Source: a virus
IMG/VR virus record: IMGVR_UViG_3300049893_000773
Span: 23,663 to 87,662 of that record
DNA length: 64,000 nt
Direction: 5' to 3' (one strand)
Shown one piece after another: positions 6,904 to 63,787 of the stretch (position 1 is its first letter; every line of letters starts with the position of its first letter). Below the pieces are notes generated by a model. It was not told where the DNA came from, made no database searches, and saw nothing but the letters and a program-made list of their open reading frames with translations. The position numbers were made by a program, and so were the translations under genes.

Positions 6904-8817
6904 ATGAAAACTTTCTCTCTTTCGCAATTGGCAGAAGGCGTAAACCGCCGCTCGCTTGGTGCTGATGCGCCAAGGCTTCTGTCCAAGTGGTCTGCAACCG
7001 GACTTCTTGAGGGACTTGGTGGTATGCAGAAGGAGACGCTCTCGCGCCTTCTGGAGAACCAAGTGGCCCAGCTCATTCAGGAGTCCAACGCCATCTCGAC
7101 GGGTGGTGCATCTCTGACCTCCTCGGGTCAGATTGCAGGCTTCTCGAACGTTGCCTTCCCTATCGTTCGTAGGGTCTTCGCTGGCCTCGTTGCCAACGAA
7201 GTGGTTTCGGTTCAGCCAATGAGCCTTCCTTCGGGACTGCTCTTCTACTTGGATTACACCTACGGCTCGAACGTTGGTGGTGATGCAGGTCTGAGCCTCT
7301 CGACCTCGGCAACGGCTGACACCTACAAGAGGGCAACCTCGGTGTACGGTCTTCCAACTGGAGCCTCGATCCGTTCGGGTGCAACTCCTGCTGGTGGCCA
7401 GTACGACCTCGTGGGTCACGGCTTCTCCAAGGTTCACAAGGGTGCTCTGAACATCACTGGCTCTACGGACTCGGTGGGTTACTGGCTCTCGGGCTCGACC
7501 TGGACAACGGGCACCTCGGCTGTCGTGGCAGCTTCGGCTGACTGGACCGGCTACAACGCCCGCTACGCTGGGTTCCGCCAGGACATCCAGAATGGTCTTG
7601 ACAACGGCGACTTCGACTACTGCTTCATGTTCATCTCGGCCTCCGAGTTGGCAGGCAAGATTTCGGGTCTCGATCTGAACGCTCTTGACCAAATCTCGAT
7701 CACTGGTTTCGGTTCGGCAGCAAACTCTGTGACCGCTTGGGGCGACAGCTTCCAGGGTGGTCTTGGAGTCCTGAACCTCCGCGCTCTGAACAAGCGTGGT
7801 GACTGGAACGCAGCCGCAGGTACCTTCACCCCAAACCCACTCGGCGGAAGCCACGTGTTGTTTGTGCTGAAGATCGCCAACGCAGGCACGGCTCCACAGC
7901 CAACCGGCGTGGCTTCGACCTACATCTCTGGCTCGGCAGCAATTGCAGACGCTCTTTCGGTTGGTTCGGAGGGCACGACCCTTACGGTCCCATCGTTCGA
8001 AACGGACTTCGCAGTTGACTCCTCGCCAAGGATTCCAGAGGTTGACATCAAGATCGAGGGTGTCTCGGTCACTGCAACGACCCGCAAGCTCCGTGCTCGT
8101 TGGTCGCCAGAGATGGCACAGGACCTTACGGCCTTCTACTCCATCGACGTGGAAGTGGAACTCACAAATATCCTGTCCGAGATGATCACGCTCGACATCG
8201 ACCGCGAAATCTTGAACGATCTCCTCACACAGGCCACAGCAGCAAACCTGTTCTGGTCGCGTGCTCCAGGACGCATCGTCAACAAGACCACTGGTCAGGA
8301 AGCTCTCCACAACAACGTCTTGGCCCCAGGCCCACAGTTCTTCGGAAATGTGCGTGAGTGGTACGAGACGCTCATGGAGACGATCACGGATGCAGCCAAC
8401 ACGATTCACAGGAAGACCCTCCGTGGTTCGGGTAACTTCATCGTCACGTCGCCAGACGTGGCAACGATCTTCGAGCACCTTGTGGCCTACAAGCCAGCAT
8501 ACAAGGTTGACTCCGATGGTCAGGTGAAGGAGTCGATGACGATTGGCGCAGAGGCAATCGGCACGCTCAACAACCGCTACGTGGTCTACAAGGACCCTTA
8601 CTTCCCACAGAACAAGATTCTGATTGGTTTGAAGGGCAACACCTTCCTGGAGTCGGGATACATCTACGCTCCATACGTTCCACTCATCTTGACTCCTGTG
8701 ATCTACGCACAGGAGGACTTCACTCCTCGCAAGGGTGTGATGACCCGCTACGGTAAGAAGATGGTCCGTGCTGACTTCTACGCCACTGTGACCGTGCTCG
8801 ACATGGCCCTCATCTGA
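6904..8817 (+). CDS. Major capsid protein precursor (T4 gp23-like)
   Basis: Builds the HK97-fold icosahedral shell. The N-terminal part has the gp23 signature LLSKWSATGLLEGLGG (residues 25-40) and LLENQVAQLIQE (49-60); the prohead protease should cut after Glu60. The block FPIVRRVFAGLVANEVVSVQ follows, as in gp23. Residues about 125-440 hold a Ser/Thr/Gly-rich segment with no clear T4 equivalent. The C-terminal part has FWSRAPGRIVNK (about 449) and ends TVLDMALI. At 637 residues it is longer than T4 gp23 (521). Codon use is very biased, as expected for the most abundant virion protein. Two hairpins and a strong terminator follow the stop. Two partial paralogs lie just downstream. Confidence 0.97.
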   Translation: MKTFSLSQLAEGVNRRSLGADAPRLLSKWSATGLLEGLGGMQKETLSRLLENQVAQLIQESNAISTGGASLTSSGQIAGFSNVAFPIVRRVFAGLVANEVVSVQPMSLPSGLLFYLDYTYGSNVGGDAGLSLSTSATADTYKRATSVYGLPTGASIRSGATPAGGQYDLVGHGFSKVHKGALNITGSTDSVGYWLSGSTWTTGTSAVVAASADWTGYNARYAGFRQDIQNGLDNGDFDYCFMFISASELAGKISGLDLNALDQISITGFGSAANSVTAWGDSFQGGLGVLNLRALNKRGDWNAAAGTFTPNPLGGSHVLFVLKIANAGTAPQPTGVASTYISGSAAIADALSVGSEGTTLTVPSFETDFAVDSSPRIPEVDIKIEGVSVTATTRKLRARWSPEMAQDLTAFYSIDVEVELTNILSEMITLDIDREILNDLLTQATAANLFWSRAPGRIVNKTTGQEALHNNVLAPGPQFFGNVREWYETLMETITDAANTIHRKTLRGSGNFIVTSPDVATIFEHLVAYKPAYKVDSDGQVKESMTIGAEAIGTLNNRYVVYKDPYFPQNKILIGLKGNTFLESGYIYAPYVPLILTPVIYAQEDFTPRKGVMTRYGKKMVRADFYATVTVLDMALI

Positions 8818-8829: not shown

Positions 8830-8856
8830 TTAGCTCCCGGTAGAGGGAGCGTCAAG

Positions 8857-8890
8857 GCCCTCGGTGCTTTTCGCATCGGGGGCTTTGTTC
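8857..8890 (+). terminator. Rho-independent terminator after the major capsid gene
   Basis: GCCCTCGGTGC (8857-8867) pairs with GCATCGGGGGC (8873-8883) over 11 pairs, two of them G-U, around a TTTTC loop; TTTGTTC follows. The terminator after SSB at 44700 has the same architecture. Confidence 0.8.
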
Positions 8891-8910
8891 ATTTGGGGAT
8901 TATGGATTTA

Positions 8911-8925
8911 ACCTCTTCCAGAGGT
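8911..8925 (+). promoter_or_regulatory. Hairpin enclosing the ribosome-binding site of the first MCP paralog
   Basis: ACCTCT (8911-8916) pairs with AGAGGT (8920-8925) around a TCC loop. The right arm is the AGAGG ribosome-binding sequence of the gene starting at 8930, so the hairpin would hide it. Confidence 0.55.
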
Positions 8926-8929
8926 AAAC

Positions 8930-9730
8930 ATGGAAAAGAGAGTTAAAGGCCCAGACGGAAGAGAATATTGCACCACTGCTTGTTGTGGAGGCCCACCAGC
9001 CAAGCAGCCCGACCCAGAGGGGACAACGCTCACCGTCCCCTCTGAATCGCTCGAAGATAAGCTTCCGCCTTTGTTGGATATTCAGCTCTTGAAAGCAAAG
9101 ATGTTGACCCCTGGCATCTTTGGGAGAAAAGATGCGTCCACAGTAGCGCCTATGCAGCGTTCGTTTTTCTGGTCAAGGAGACCGGGGAACTACGTGGATA
9201 GACTTACGGGACAGTCTGCCATGAAGAAGGTGGTCCAACGGGTAACCGTTTCCGAGATGGAAGTCCCAGGGTCTAATCCAAAGACCTTCGTCTTGGTCCA
9301 GCGAGAGGAGGAACGAGAGGTTCCAATCGACTCCTTTGAGGGAACAGTCAAGGATTGGTATGAGAAGCTGGGGGAGGAAGTCCTTCAGTGTGCCAACGAA
9401 ATTTTCCGCAAGTGCTTGGTGCCTGCCAATCTTGTTGAGATGTCCCCGGATCTCGTGAATCTATTCGAGGCCATTGGATTCGATCCCGGCAAATGGAGGC
9501 AGGTCGGTGCAAATGAGTTGCTTGCAACCAATAAGCTTTTTGGCAGGTATGCCGTTGTACGGTGTAACAACCTACCGGCAAACGAGTTGCACGTCAAGCT
9601 GATCTCGGAGATTTTCTACACTTTCGGCAATTTGACCGGCCCTGTCCCGGAAATCGACATGGAATTGCTCACCAAACCCGCGACGTTGGCTGATTACAAG
9701 GTCACTGTGTTGGACATGCCTCTCCTGTAG
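8930..9730 (+). CDS. Partial paralog 1 of the major capsid protein (C-terminal domain)
   Basis: This 266-residue protein aligns with the C-terminal half of the MCP encoded just upstream. Shared blocks in the same order are GTTLTVPS (residues 31-38; the MCP copy is near 357), FFWSRRPGNYVDRLTGQ (79-95; MCP FWSRAPGRIVNKTTGQ), VKDWYEKLGEEVL (MCP VREWYETLMETI), a SPD block (MSPDLVNLFE; MCP TSPDVATIFE) and the C-terminal TVLDMPLL (MCP TVLDMALI). The MCP N-terminal arm and protease site are absent. The first 25 residues contain Cys14, Cys18 and Cys19 and are unrelated to MCP. T4 also has a gp23 paralog (gp24, vertex), but that one is nearly full length. A minor capsid, vertex or cement role is possible. 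Homology is confident; function is unknown. Confidence 0.8.
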   Translation: MEKRVKGPDGREYCTTACCGGPPAKQPDPEGTTLTVPSESLEDKLPPLLDIQLLKAKMLTPGIFGRKDASTVAPMQRSFFWSRRPGNYVDRLTGQSAMKKVVQRVTVSEMEVPGSNPKTFVLVQREEEREVPIDSFEGTVKDWYEKLGEEVLQCANEIFRKCLVPANLVEMSPDLVNLFEAIGFDPGKWRQVGANELLATNKLFGRYAVVRCNNLPANELHVKLISEIFYTFGNLTGPVPEIDMELLTKPATLADYKVTVLDMPLL

Positions 9731-9734
9731 AGTC

Positions 9735-9760
9735 ATTCTTTCCTCAACAGAGGAAAGAAT
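9735..9760 (+). promoter_or_regulatory. Perfect 11-pair hairpin over the ribosome-binding site of the second MCP paralog
   Basis: ATTCTTTCCTC (9735-9745) and GAGGAAAGAAT (9750-9760) are exact inverted repeats around an AACA loop, ending two bases before ATG 9763. The right arm contains the GAGGA ribosome-binding sequence. No T-run follows, so translational control fits better than termination. Confidence 0.7.
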
Positions 9761-9762
9761 CA

Positions 9763-10416
9763 ATGACAATGACAGAGACGGTGAATACCCCATACAGGAC
9801 AGCTTCCGCGCTGCCCAACAACCAACAAACGGAGACCAATAAGCGGTTTTGGTCCCGTACCCCCGGCAGGTTCGTCAACAAGTGGACCGGGCAGGATAGC
9901 ATGGCAAACGCTGGACTGAGCAACGGTCCAATGTACGTTGGAAATGTCCGTGAGTGGTACGAGACGTTTGTGGAAACGATTCACGATGCTGCTGCGGTTA
10001 TCAAGAAGCGTTCTGGCCAGGACCCCAACATCCTTGAGGTCTCCCCCGACATCTTGACCATTCTTGAGTGCACCGTGTCGTATAGATCAGTCTATTACGC
10101 AAATGAGGACCAGCCAAGGGTCACCATGAAGGGTGCAATTGGAGGGCTTGTTGGGCAAGTGGCTGGCAGGTACCATGTGCACGTCAACCCCGACTTCCCT
10201 GCGGATACAGCGAAGCTCGTGCTCGTGACCGACCAGAGAGTTTTGACGGAGACCGTGAAGGCACAGCCGCTTCAGGCCATGATTGATGGGAAGCCGGTGC
10301 CAAGCTACGTGGAAGATGAGTGGACCACAACTCAGGTTCGCAAGACTGAACCGCTTCCTTCCATCACCCGCCTTGATGGTATGACGATCAAGGTTCTCGA
10401 CATGAATATTCTGTGA
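9763..10416 (+). CDS. Partial paralog 2 of the major capsid protein (C-terminal domain)
   Basis: 217 residues that match the MCP C-terminal domain more closely than paralog 1. Shared blocks are FWSRTPGRFVNKWTGQ (MCP FWSRAPGRIVNKTTGQ), GNVREWYETFVETIHDAA (MCP GNVREWYETLMETITDAA), VSPDILTILE (MCP TSPDVATIFE) and the C-terminal KVLDMNIL. As in paralog 1, the N-terminal arm, protease site and Ser/Thr-rich middle are missing. Residues 1-28 are a short Thr/Asn-rich leader. The start codon lies two bases behind a perfect hairpin, which suggests tightly limited translation relative to MCP. A minor capsid component made at low copy number is my best inference. Confidence 0.85.
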   Translation: MTMTETVNTPYRTASALPNNQQTETNKRFWSRTPGRFVNKWTGQDSMANAGLSNGPMYVGNVREWYETFVETIHDAAAVIKKRSGQDPNILEVSPDILTILECTVSYRSVYYANEDQPRVTMKGAIGGLVGQVAGRYHVHVNPDFPADTAKLVLVTDQRVLTETVKAQPLQAMIDGKPVPSYVEDEWTTTQVRKTEPLPSITRLDGMTIKVLDMNIL

Positions 10417-10453: not shown

Positions 10454-11521
10454 ATGGACCTTCGTTTCCGAGAAGAATGCTACGGCCACAGTGGTGGTCA
10501 AACCGATTGCTCTCTATACGCCCTTCTAGGCGACGAAGTGATCGGGAAGGTAGATATCGCCTACCACCGAAATGGTGGCCGTAGAGAGGCGTATATCAAG
10601 ATGATCGAAGTGCAGCCTAATTTCCAGGGGAAAGGGGTTGGCAAGGCTTTGATCTATAAGTTGGCCAGTCAAATCCCTTACGAGGCGATTGATTGGGGGA
10701 TGACCACGCCTGAAGGTGGGGCATTGAAGCAGGCAATGGACCGGGAGTTTGGAACATCCTACGTTCCACCTGAGCCCGAGCCAGACATGGATGACCCCAA
10801 GTACGCTGACGACCTCAGTGGCGAAAGGTATTTTGCCGACCTAAAGGTTTGGCGGCAAAAGCAAGGGTACGTGGATGAGGCTAATTACCACGGAAAGGGA
10901 ATGGAAAGAATGAAAGTCAAGGACCTCAAGAAGCTGGTTGCCGAGAGTGTAGCCGCTGCTGTGAAAGAAGCCGGATATGACCAGTACGGGGAGGGTGTGT
11001 CGCAACCTACGGAGCCAAGCTGGTTCGACACGCTGATGGCCCCTGATGAGCCTGCACCTGAACTCAAGGGCACGCCAGAAGCCAGGAAGCTGGTTGATGC
11101 GGCCAAATTGATGTTGAAGAAGGCTGGTCCAAAGATTGACAAGGAAGTCATGAGCCAAGTCTCTGCTGAGTTGGAGCACAACTTCAACCTCCCAGACGGG
11201 GTAAGCTGGGAAGTGGTCCATGCTGCCTTTGAGGAGCTCAAGAGTGACATGCTTTCCGAGGCTCCACCAGAGGGATGGCACGGGACTGTGCGGGCCATGA
11301 AGACCCATGGACACACTGGCAAGGGTGGGGAGATCGACAACCCATACGCCTTGGCACACTACATGGCAAACAAGGGGGATGAGCCTCACTACAAGGAGCA
11401 GCCAACCTCCAAGAAGGGTACTCCTGTGAAGAAGAAGGAGTACATGAAGACGGAAGCCTTCGTTGATTTGGTCCGTCAGATGATCCGCGAGGAGATCCTG
11501 AATCTCCGCAAGGGGAAGTGA
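10454..11521 (+). CDS. GNAT acetyltransferase domain fused to a tag-bearing helical protein
   Basis: Residues 1-100 look like a GNAT N-acetyltransferase: strand IKMIEVQPNFQGKGVGKALI (48-67) contains the acetyl-CoA binding motif Q/R-x-x-G-x-G/A (QGKGVG). The substrate is unknown. After a Pro-rich linker, Met153 begins the recurrent helix MKVKDLKKLVAESVAAAVKE, followed by an acidic helical region, and the protein ends with a similar helix (EAFVDLVRQMIREEILNL). The ATG for Met153 (10910) has AAAGGGA nine bases upstream, so a shorter second product is possible. The gene start is only five bases behind TATTTA and has no ribosome-binding sequence, suggesting a leaderless mRNA. Position among head genes hints at a virion-packaged enzyme; this is inference. 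Confidence 0.7.
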   Translation: MDLRFREECYGHSGGQTDCSLYALLGDEVIGKVDIAYHRNGGRREAYIKMIEVQPNFQGKGVGKALIYKLASQIPYEAIDWGMTTPEGGALKQAMDREFGTSYVPPEPEPDMDDPKYADDLSGERYFADLKVWRQKQGYVDEANYHGKGMERMKVKDLKKLVAESVAAAVKEAGYDQYGEGVSQPTEPSWFDTLMAPDEPAPELKGTPEARKLVDAAKLMLKKAGPKIDKEVMSQVSAELEHNFNLPDGVSWEVVHAAFEELKSDMLSEAPPEGWHGTVRAMKTHGHTGKGGEIDNPYALAHYMANKGDEPHYKEQPTSKKGTPVKKKEYMKTEAFVDLVRQMIREEILNLRKGK

Positions 11522-59482: not shown

Positions 59483-59637
59483 AGGACGTGAATCTGCACC
59501 TATGGGCCAAGGAAGCCATCAAGGGTGGGGTGATTGAGCGGCTTGAAAAGGCTATTGCTTCCACTTCTGATCCCTTCATGAAAGCCCTTCACCTTGAACA
59601 AATCAAACAAATCAGGCAGCTAGCCTCAGCCTCGTGA
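59479..59637 (+). CDS. 52-residue helical protein after thymidylate synthase
   Basis: ATG overlaps the ThyA stop (ATGA). Helical, with [20 protein letters not shown] and [15 protein letters not shown]. No family recognised. Overlapping stops and starts on both sides (the next frame has a GTG overlapping its stop) support it as a real gene. Confidence 0.5.
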
Positions 59638-59648
59638 GTAGAGTTGAC

Positions 59649-60008
59649 ATGATCACAGAAAATTGCATCAAAAAGTGGAGAACGACTGGCCTTCTTGAAG
59701 GACTTTCAGGAGAACCTGAAAGTCGGTGTGCTGAGGTGCTGGAGAACGCAGCAGTTGAAATCATCAAACAAGGGCATGAGGGTCGTACGGTGGAGCTCCT
59801 ATTCCCTGTAATTCGACGGATGGCAGGGGAAGGGTTTTACCCTTCCGATGCTGCTTGGTTGGTTGAGGATTTCCAAAATTGGATGAAGACCCGTGGTTCC
59901 CACATTGACTTCTGCTTCACAGTAGAAGCTGAAGTTGAGTTCTGCGCCCAGTATTCAACAGAATGCCCAGAGAGGTTCAGCAGGAGAAACAATGTCGCTA
60001 GCAATTGA
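59649..60008 (+). CDS. Small protein resembling the N-terminal region of the major capsid protein
   Basis: 119 residues from ATG 59649 (a GTG at 59634 is an alternative). Residues 5-40 align without gaps to MCP residues 25-60: here KKWRTTGLLEGLSG and VLENAAVEIIKQ, in MCP SKWSATGLLEGLGG and LLENQVAQLIQE. Then FPVIRRMAG matches MCP FPIVRRVFAG. The MCP protease site L-I-Q-E is I-I-K-Q here, so it should not be cut. The C-terminal part is unrelated (helix AAWLVEDFQNWMKTRG). A relative lies at 60735. An assembly regulator that competes with or mimics the capsid arm is possible; the function is unknown. Confidence 0.65.
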   Translation: MITENCIKKWRTTGLLEGLSGEPESRCAEVLENAAVEIIKQGHEGRTVELLFPVIRRMAGEGFYPSDAAWLVEDFQNWMKTRGSHIDFCFTVEAEVEFCAQYSTECPERFSRRNNVASN

Positions 60009-63131: not shown

Positions 63132-63181
63132 GTCTTGTTCAGGCTGAGCCCCTCACTCCTGGTGCAGGAAATCGTAAAAGT

Positions 63182-63220
63182 GCAACCCATGAGCCGTCCC
63201 TCTGGGTTGCCTTTCTATTT
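63182..63220 (+). terminator. Rho-independent terminator after the amidotransferase gene
   Basis: GCAACCCA (63182-63189) and TGGGTTGC (63203-63210) pair exactly around a 13-base loop, followed by CTTTCTATTT. The rest of the 155-base gap to the DHFR start shows nothing definite. Confidence 0.75.
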
Positions 63221-63286
63221 GGACTTTCAATACGGCGAGAAGAAGAAGAAGAGAAATCCCTTTCGGTGGACCTGTTTAAGGGTACG

Positions 63287-63787
63287 ATGCAAAGACAGGA
63301 AGTAAGCTTGATTGTGGCGGTGGACGATGGAGGGGTGATCGGTCACAATGGGTCTTTGCCAGATTGGCATGCCCCTGGAGACCTGAAGAGGTTCAAGGAG
63401 CTTACCATTGGCAAAAGTGTGATCATGGGTCGCAGGACCTATGAATCCATTGGGAAACCATTGCCAAACAGGTGTAATATCGTTCTGAGCCGCACCTTGC
63501 TCGAAGGAACCGGTATTCACATTGTCCGTTCCTGGGATGAGGCTTTGAAGCTGGCTGCTTTGGTAGCCCAGGGATCGGAAATCATGGTGATTGGCGGTGC
63601 TGACATCTACGCCCAAGCCCTGCCAATTGCCTCTCGTGTGTACTTGACCAGAGTGCACGGCAGGCATCCGGGGGATGCTTTCTTTCCACCTCTTGATCCC
63701 AAGAAATGGGTGGTAGTGGAACAAGTGGCCCTTCCAACCCATTCGTACCTGATTTACGAGCGCAGGGTTAACAACACCTCCTCTTGA
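63287..63787 (+). CDS. folA: Dihydrofolate reductase
   Basis: Regenerates tetrahydrofolate consumed by thymidylate synthase. The 166 residues have SLIVAVDDGGVIGHNGSLPD, WHAPGDLKRFKELT, VIMGRRTYESIG, IVLSRT and the IGGADIYAQALP block, complete for the family; a Lys/Trp block with DAFFPPLD ends it. ATG 63287 is preferred over an in-frame GTG at 63266 because the protein then begins just before the first strand. It lies in the metabolic half of the window with ThyA, RNR and dUTPase. Confidence 0.95.
   Translation: MQRQEVSLIVAVDDGGVIGHNGSLPDWHAPGDLKRFKELTIGKSVIMGRRTYESIGKPLPNRCNIVLSRTLLEGTGIHIVRSWDEALKLAALVAQGSEIMVIGGADIYAQALPIASRVYLTRVHGRHPGDAFFPPLDPKKWVVVEQVALPTHSYLIYERRVNNTSS

Follow-up and report, generated by a model that had tools for sequence, protein, structure and literature searches.

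The window analysed here, a stretch of 64,000 bases out of an 87,662-base virus record, contains a head gene cluster in which the genes for the portal (Gp20, Pfam E 9e-63), the prohead protease (Peptidase_S77, Pfam E 2e-26), a 692-aa ORF and the major capsid protein (MCP) are followed by two short genes, P1 and P2, and then by a GNAT-domain protein, a 126-aa ORF and a 419-aa ORF (Table 1). The 692-aa ORF occupies the scaffold position, between the protease and MCP, and the position of the 419-aa ORF suggests a likeness to head-completion proteins. The best solved relative of the window MCP is T4 gp23* (E 2e-27), and the cultured phages nearest by MCP are Flavobacterium phage immuto, Microcystis phage Mel-JY01 and Rhodothermus phage RM378 (37–46% identity, 58–66% of query). 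Searches of the 87,662-base record for a second full-length MCP or for a gp24 homologue were negative; they did identify two N-terminal MCP fragments. The base composition of P1 and P2 resembles that of the neighbour genes. The window gene at 10454–11521 carries a fused N-terminal GNAT acetyltransferase domain that is absent from its orthologue in the related record L278 (L278:4692-5336). The slot 3' of MCP is in relatives a hot spot of endonuclease ORFs, of GIY-YIG and HNH/VSR-like types as assigned by eye (L014, L016, L017, L018, L021, L023 and L032); another such ORF, likewise by eye, is L278:7001-8077.

Table 1. Features of the window and A-domain-only copies identified in other virus records.
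Feature	Position or record	Strand	Length	Basis or remark
MCP, Gp23 family	6904..8817	+	637 aa	Pfam PF07068 E 3.9e-75; PHROG 138 E 5.5e-70
Small hairpin GCTCCC/GGGAGC behind MCP stop	8833..8850	+		also in L278
Terminator-like hairpin in MCP/P1 gap	8853..8887	+	15 pairs	consensus match; kept in L278
Hairpin, 3' arm with likely P1 ribosome-binding site AGAGGT	8908..8928	+		not clearly kept in L278
P1, C-domain-only MCP paralogue	8930..9730	+	266 aa	homology; A-domain core about 9146-9730
P1 Cys-rich N-terminal motif	8930-9010	+		P1 residues 1-27
P1 insert, FWSR to WYE	about 9230-9322	+	~27 aa	
Perfect hairpin, 3' arm with likely P2 ribosome-binding site GAGGA	9735..9760	+	11 bp	hairpin of different sequence at this place in L278 and L279
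P2, C-domain-only MCP paralogue	9763..10416	+	217 aa	homology
ORF with MCP N-arm-like segment (MCP ~25-91), KKWRTTGLLEGLSG...FPVIRRM	59634..60008	+	124 aa	SW 84, HMM E 5.8e-6
ORF with MCP ~90-121, beside DHFR-like gene	63135..63305	+	56 aa	SW 99, HMM E 4.9e-9
A-domain-only copy	G017 and near-identical G033		232 aa	
A-domain-only copy	G043		131 aa	
A-domain-only copy	L223/L224		175 aa	
A-domain-only copy	G008		166 aa	perhaps a second
A-domain-only copy	L318		123 aa	about 2 kb behind own MCP
A-domain-only copy	G104		183 aa	

P1 contains the MCP motifs FWSRRPG, VKDWYE, SPD and VLDMPLL, and P2 contains FWSRTPG, VREWYE, SPD and VLDMNIL, in agreement with the initial annotation, which had placed two ORFs with these motifs directly behind the MCP gene and had related both to the MCP C-terminal domain. 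By BLASTP against the window MCP, P2 aligns with an E of 2e-29 (36% over 201 aa) and P1 with an E of 7e-15, and the two align with each other at 1e-10; the homologous part of MCP is the C-terminal ~195 residues. An HMM of the MCP C-domain, built from the MCPs of other phages only (zero short copies included), gave 104 bits for P2 and 48 bits for P1, as compared to 5.9 bits for the best of 1000 shuffles. Scores this far above the shuffles establish the homology and exclude a chance match of short motifs, an outcome that the annotation had allowed for. The T4-like Gp23 MCPs of environmental phages (PF07068; PHROG 138) are the homology source for P1 and P2, which themselves fall below the Pfam cut-off (24.4 bits for PF07068; 15.6 for P2, no match for P1). 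Neither protein has a PHROG match at E<=1e-3, and no Pfam or PHROG family takes in the short copies above threshold. Among the GenBank phages searched we found nothing for P1, and for P2 only the MCP of one uncultured phage.

The N-terminal motif of P1, GPDGREYCTxACCGGPPAK, has three cysteines and possibly binds metal. It is strongly kept in P1 orthologues, which elsewhere are only about 43% identical. The P1 peptide EGTTLTVPS equals MCP 356–364 (5/2000 shuffles as good) and was read as proof of an internal deletion, a reading that we rejected because the peptide is absent from the orthologues in L278 and in a second related record, L279. At the DNA level P2 and MCP are 85% identical over 53 nt, which would fit a recent duplication or gene conversion. 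Against this, identity in the same block is 65% in the L278 pair, and trees leave P2 unjoined to its own MCP, although the AU test does not reject such a joining.

Both P1 and P2 begin after the MCP spine-helix segment, and both have lost a second, internal block close to the C-terminal end of MCP (MCP ~583–625, YIYAPYVPL...MTRYGKKMVR). Only six MCP residues of the YIYAPYVPL...PRKGVMTRYGKKMVR block are matched by P1 and P2, in P2 via unrelated filler. In HK97, N356, the residue that cross-links the lattice, is on the P-loop, 28 residues ahead of the C-terminal Gly384, and a five-stranded sheet makes up the A domain (PMC5701804). Since the missing block is at an N356-like distance from the C-terminus, we read it as the P-loop limb. 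P1 and P2 are without the N-arm, E-loop, spine helix and P-loop limb, and neither has the complete HK97 fold. The parts kept are the post-spine segment FWSRxPGxxVNKxTG, the helix GxVREWYETLxE, the SPD strand/helix and the last strand, VLDM. With the domain borders set by HK97 topology and by AlphaFold models of moderate confidence (pLDDT 67 each), P1 and P2 would each be an A domain freed of the P domain. The best PDB match of the P2 model is T4 gp23 (5vf3; E 4.6e-4, probability 1.00), with gp24 (1yue) fifth, and the best matches of the P1 model are T4 gp23 (E 0.013) and gp24. The profile scores and the fold matches agree in pointing to T4 gp23/gp24. The AlphaFold input alignments are mostly MCPs, so that the fold match is consistent with the homology and not independent of it.

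A profile search with the short copies identified the two related records. L278 has the same gene order and spacing as the window, with 94.2% identity for MCP, 43.5% for P1 and 53.0% for P2. L279, which ends at a contig edge with the MCP junction outside, has a partial P1 followed by P2. The tandem P1-P2 arrangement behind MCP is thus maintained in a small virus group. Comparison of L278 with L279 gave an omega of 0.30 for P1 and of 0.21 for P2, against 0.02–0.05 for three neighbour genes; the value for the 419-aa neighbour is 0.023. The synonymous excess is significant for both (P1, p 1.4e-5; P2, p 8e-6), as is the omega contrast with the 419-aa neighbour (P1, p 2e-7; P2, p 2e-4). P1 and P2 evolve several times faster than the surrounding head proteins, and their omega values, well below 1, mark them as genuine genes maintained by purifying selection. 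We conclude that P1 and P2 are almost certainly MCP-derived, selected proteins that consist of the C-domain only.

In addition to the hairpins in the MCP/P1 gap, hairpins accompany the start sites of both genes (Table 1). The one at the P2 ribosome-binding site is present in 3/3 viruses (window, L278 and L279) with differing stem sequences, and the start-site hairpins may control the translation of P1 and P2. No RNA families or tRNAs were found.

We searched roughly 100 MCP-bearing records and identified A-domain-only proteins in about six further lineages, mostly encoded at a distance from MCP. Most of the records searched were without such a copy, indicating that the group at large can do without it. 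The second G008 protein (P0006) is marginal, at 11 bits versus 5.9 for the best shuffle. The genomic contexts are varied: the copies in G017/G033, G043 and L223 adjoin, or are one gene off, a UDP-glucose/GDP-mannose dehydrogenase gene, the G104 copy is between dUTPase-like/RecA-like genes and an exonuclease-like gene (names by eye), and the G008 copy is behind HNH-endonuclease-like ORFs. The N-terminal additions differ as well, being Cys-rich in P1, ~95 aa long in G017 and missing in G043. The W of FWS, the G of PG and the W of EWYE are invariant in the short proteins that were aligned (11/11), and G104, found after that alignment, also has all three. Most short copies match about 10–16 of the 16 MCP residues of FWSRxPG..NKxTG and 10–17 of the 18 of GTVREWYETLVE, while the remainder drifts and the P-limb is gone. 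Because these two blocks stay near MCP as the rest drifts, we read them as a retained interface.

These proteins can be described as a group of free-standing MCP A-domain proteins that keep FWSxxPG..TG, the W(YE) helix and VLDM and are missing the spine helix and P-limb, and P1 and P2 belong to it. The other IMG/VR copies (G017/G033, G043, L223/L224, G008, L318 and G104) share the kept blocks and the lost parts with P1 and P2; they differ in being single (G008 perhaps has two) and in mostly not adjoining MCP. In trees with long branches, P1 and P2 fall outside the MCPs of their own genus, and P2 is left unjoined to its own MCP. AU tests on these long branches reject neither one nor several origins (p-AU 0.21 for all short copies as one clade; 0.134 for P2 with the MCPs of its own genus). 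In the open-licence papers that we searched, MCP copies reduced to one domain are not described.

Further small genes encode other MCP segments, as supported by shuffle controls and profile scores. The SW scores of the two window ORFs (Table 1) compare with maxima of 53 in 1000 shuffles for 59634–60008 and of 45 in 2000 shuffles for 63135–63305. The GC3 of the 59634–60008 ORF is 47%, low against other window genes. The 63135–63305 ORF has a counterpart at the same place in the record of L278, also beside a DHFR-like gene (L359:1513-1686), and its position suggests a possible overlap with the Gol-equivalent region of T4 gp23. Several jumbo relatives (L368 = G043, L367 = G103 and L364 = G084) encode tandem small proteins with a common SH3-like module (PG..V.H...G.IV.V......VLWS..P), which has no Pfam family above cut-off and in several of the proteins is followed by differing MCP segments. 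These segments are MCP ~370–411 and 79–126 in G043, the P-limb (580–629) and 89–123 in G103, and 81–123 in G084; a separate protein elsewhere in G103 has 387–438. The P-limb piece of G103 is exactly the block lost from the A-domain copies, and an A-domain copy was not found in G103. The 'spine2' piece of G043 was not significant by shuffling. Perhaps these dispersed proteins, encoded alongside an intact MCP and with one MCP segment each (N-arm, N-terminal strand, spine, A domain, P-loop limb), act as a set, be it a split capsid protein, segment-swapping head docking tags or a panel of MCP epitope decoys; we put this forward tentatively, as a possibility with the odds against it.

Given their place in the head gene cluster, we favour an action of P1 and P2 on MCP or the head, and with a probability of about 0.45 consider them to be accessory proteins with MCP or the capsid as their docking site. 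Read as free-standing A domains derived from a Gp23-type MCP, and without the parts that bind neighbours, P1 and P2 probably take no place in the lattice as ordinary subunits. The terminator-like hairpin separates them from MCP, and their output is perhaps limited by the start-site hairpins. The proteins may dock on MCP subunits or on the assembling head via the retained MCP surface, and in this way may influence assembly or act as minor proteins associated with the head; cement, assembly-modulator and dominant-negative roles are all possible. With the other pieces described above, P1 and P2 form part of a broader tendency of these viruses to carry individual MCP segments as small proteins of their own. 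Most other A-domain copies are away from head genes, where a non-structural role fits better, and this counts against a capsid role.

The scattered contexts, the fast evolution and the existence of MCP sensors make immune mimicry the main rival to docking. P1, P2 and the other pieces would be decoys, each presenting a single MCP surface that occupies host sensors or a guarded host factor with no triggering. MCPs are known immune triggers: CapRel-SJ46 binds the MCP P-domain sheet, spine helix and A-domain loops (PMC9712102), and the Gol segment, in the first quarter of T4 gp23, activates Lit through EF-Tu (PMC3014915). The pieces are small and are drawn from several MCP regions (N-terminal strand, spine, A domain, P-limb), and many copies are in accessory or metabolic regions. 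However, both viruses with a readable junction (window and L278) have P1 and P2 among the head genes, the reading presupposes a sensor of the window MCP in the host, and a mimic that binds a sensor could equally trigger it, which leaves mimicry doubtful. Reuse of the A domain as a binding or folding module, with a function unrelated to capsids or immunity, would account for the scattered contexts and the differing N-terminal additions; we think it unlikely, since the MCP-specific blocks are better kept than the rest of the domain, suggesting a partner shared with MCP.

That P1 and P2 are relics, from decaying MCP duplications or from recombination around the homing endonucleases behind MCP in relatives, is improbable. 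Endonuclease ORFs of the GIY-YIG or HNH/VSR-like types do fill the post-MCP slot in several relatives, and some N-terminal fragments look degenerate (L027:5422-5628), but every copy of P1 and P2 that we saw is intact, the selection test contradicts relic status, and similar trimming recurs in other lineages. The initial annotation had also listed minor capsomer and vertex roles. T4 gp24, a vertex protein and paralogue of the Gp23 MCP, is thought to stem from gene duplication (PMC9958956), and both the Gp23 paralogy and the presence of gp24 among the fold-search matches would fit such a role for P1 and P2. gp24, which is nearly full length, retains every part of the HK97 fold and builds the pentons, whereas P1 and P2 are two copies of a single domain, a contrast that the annotation had drawn correctly. 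As the lattice-contact parts are all missing from P1 and P2, we hold it very improbable that they are bona fide minor capsomer or vertex subunits in the ordinary sense. The Ccm protein of SaPIbov5 is likewise a capsid-protein homologue; it alters capsid assembly and takes the place of the capsid protein in pentamers (PMC8569155). Ccm is a satellite product that has the entire HK97 fold, N-arm and E-loop included, and acts on a helper phage, whereas P1 and P2 consist of a partial domain and are encoded in the phage's own head gene cluster. To our knowledge, the known MCP paralogues, gp24 and Ccm, all retain the full HK97 fold.

P1 and P2 are capsid paralogues, a kind already known, in an unusual form, and the reading of a dissected MCP would make them more than that. 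Single-domain copies occur in seven virus lineages, and persistence under selection was shown in the one lineage where it could be tested, indicating that a capsid protein can be split into parts that persist as proteins in their own right. If P1 and P2 dock on the head, they would represent assembly factors or head-targeting tags of a new kind; as decoys, they would instead point to MCP sensing as a broad pressure on phages.
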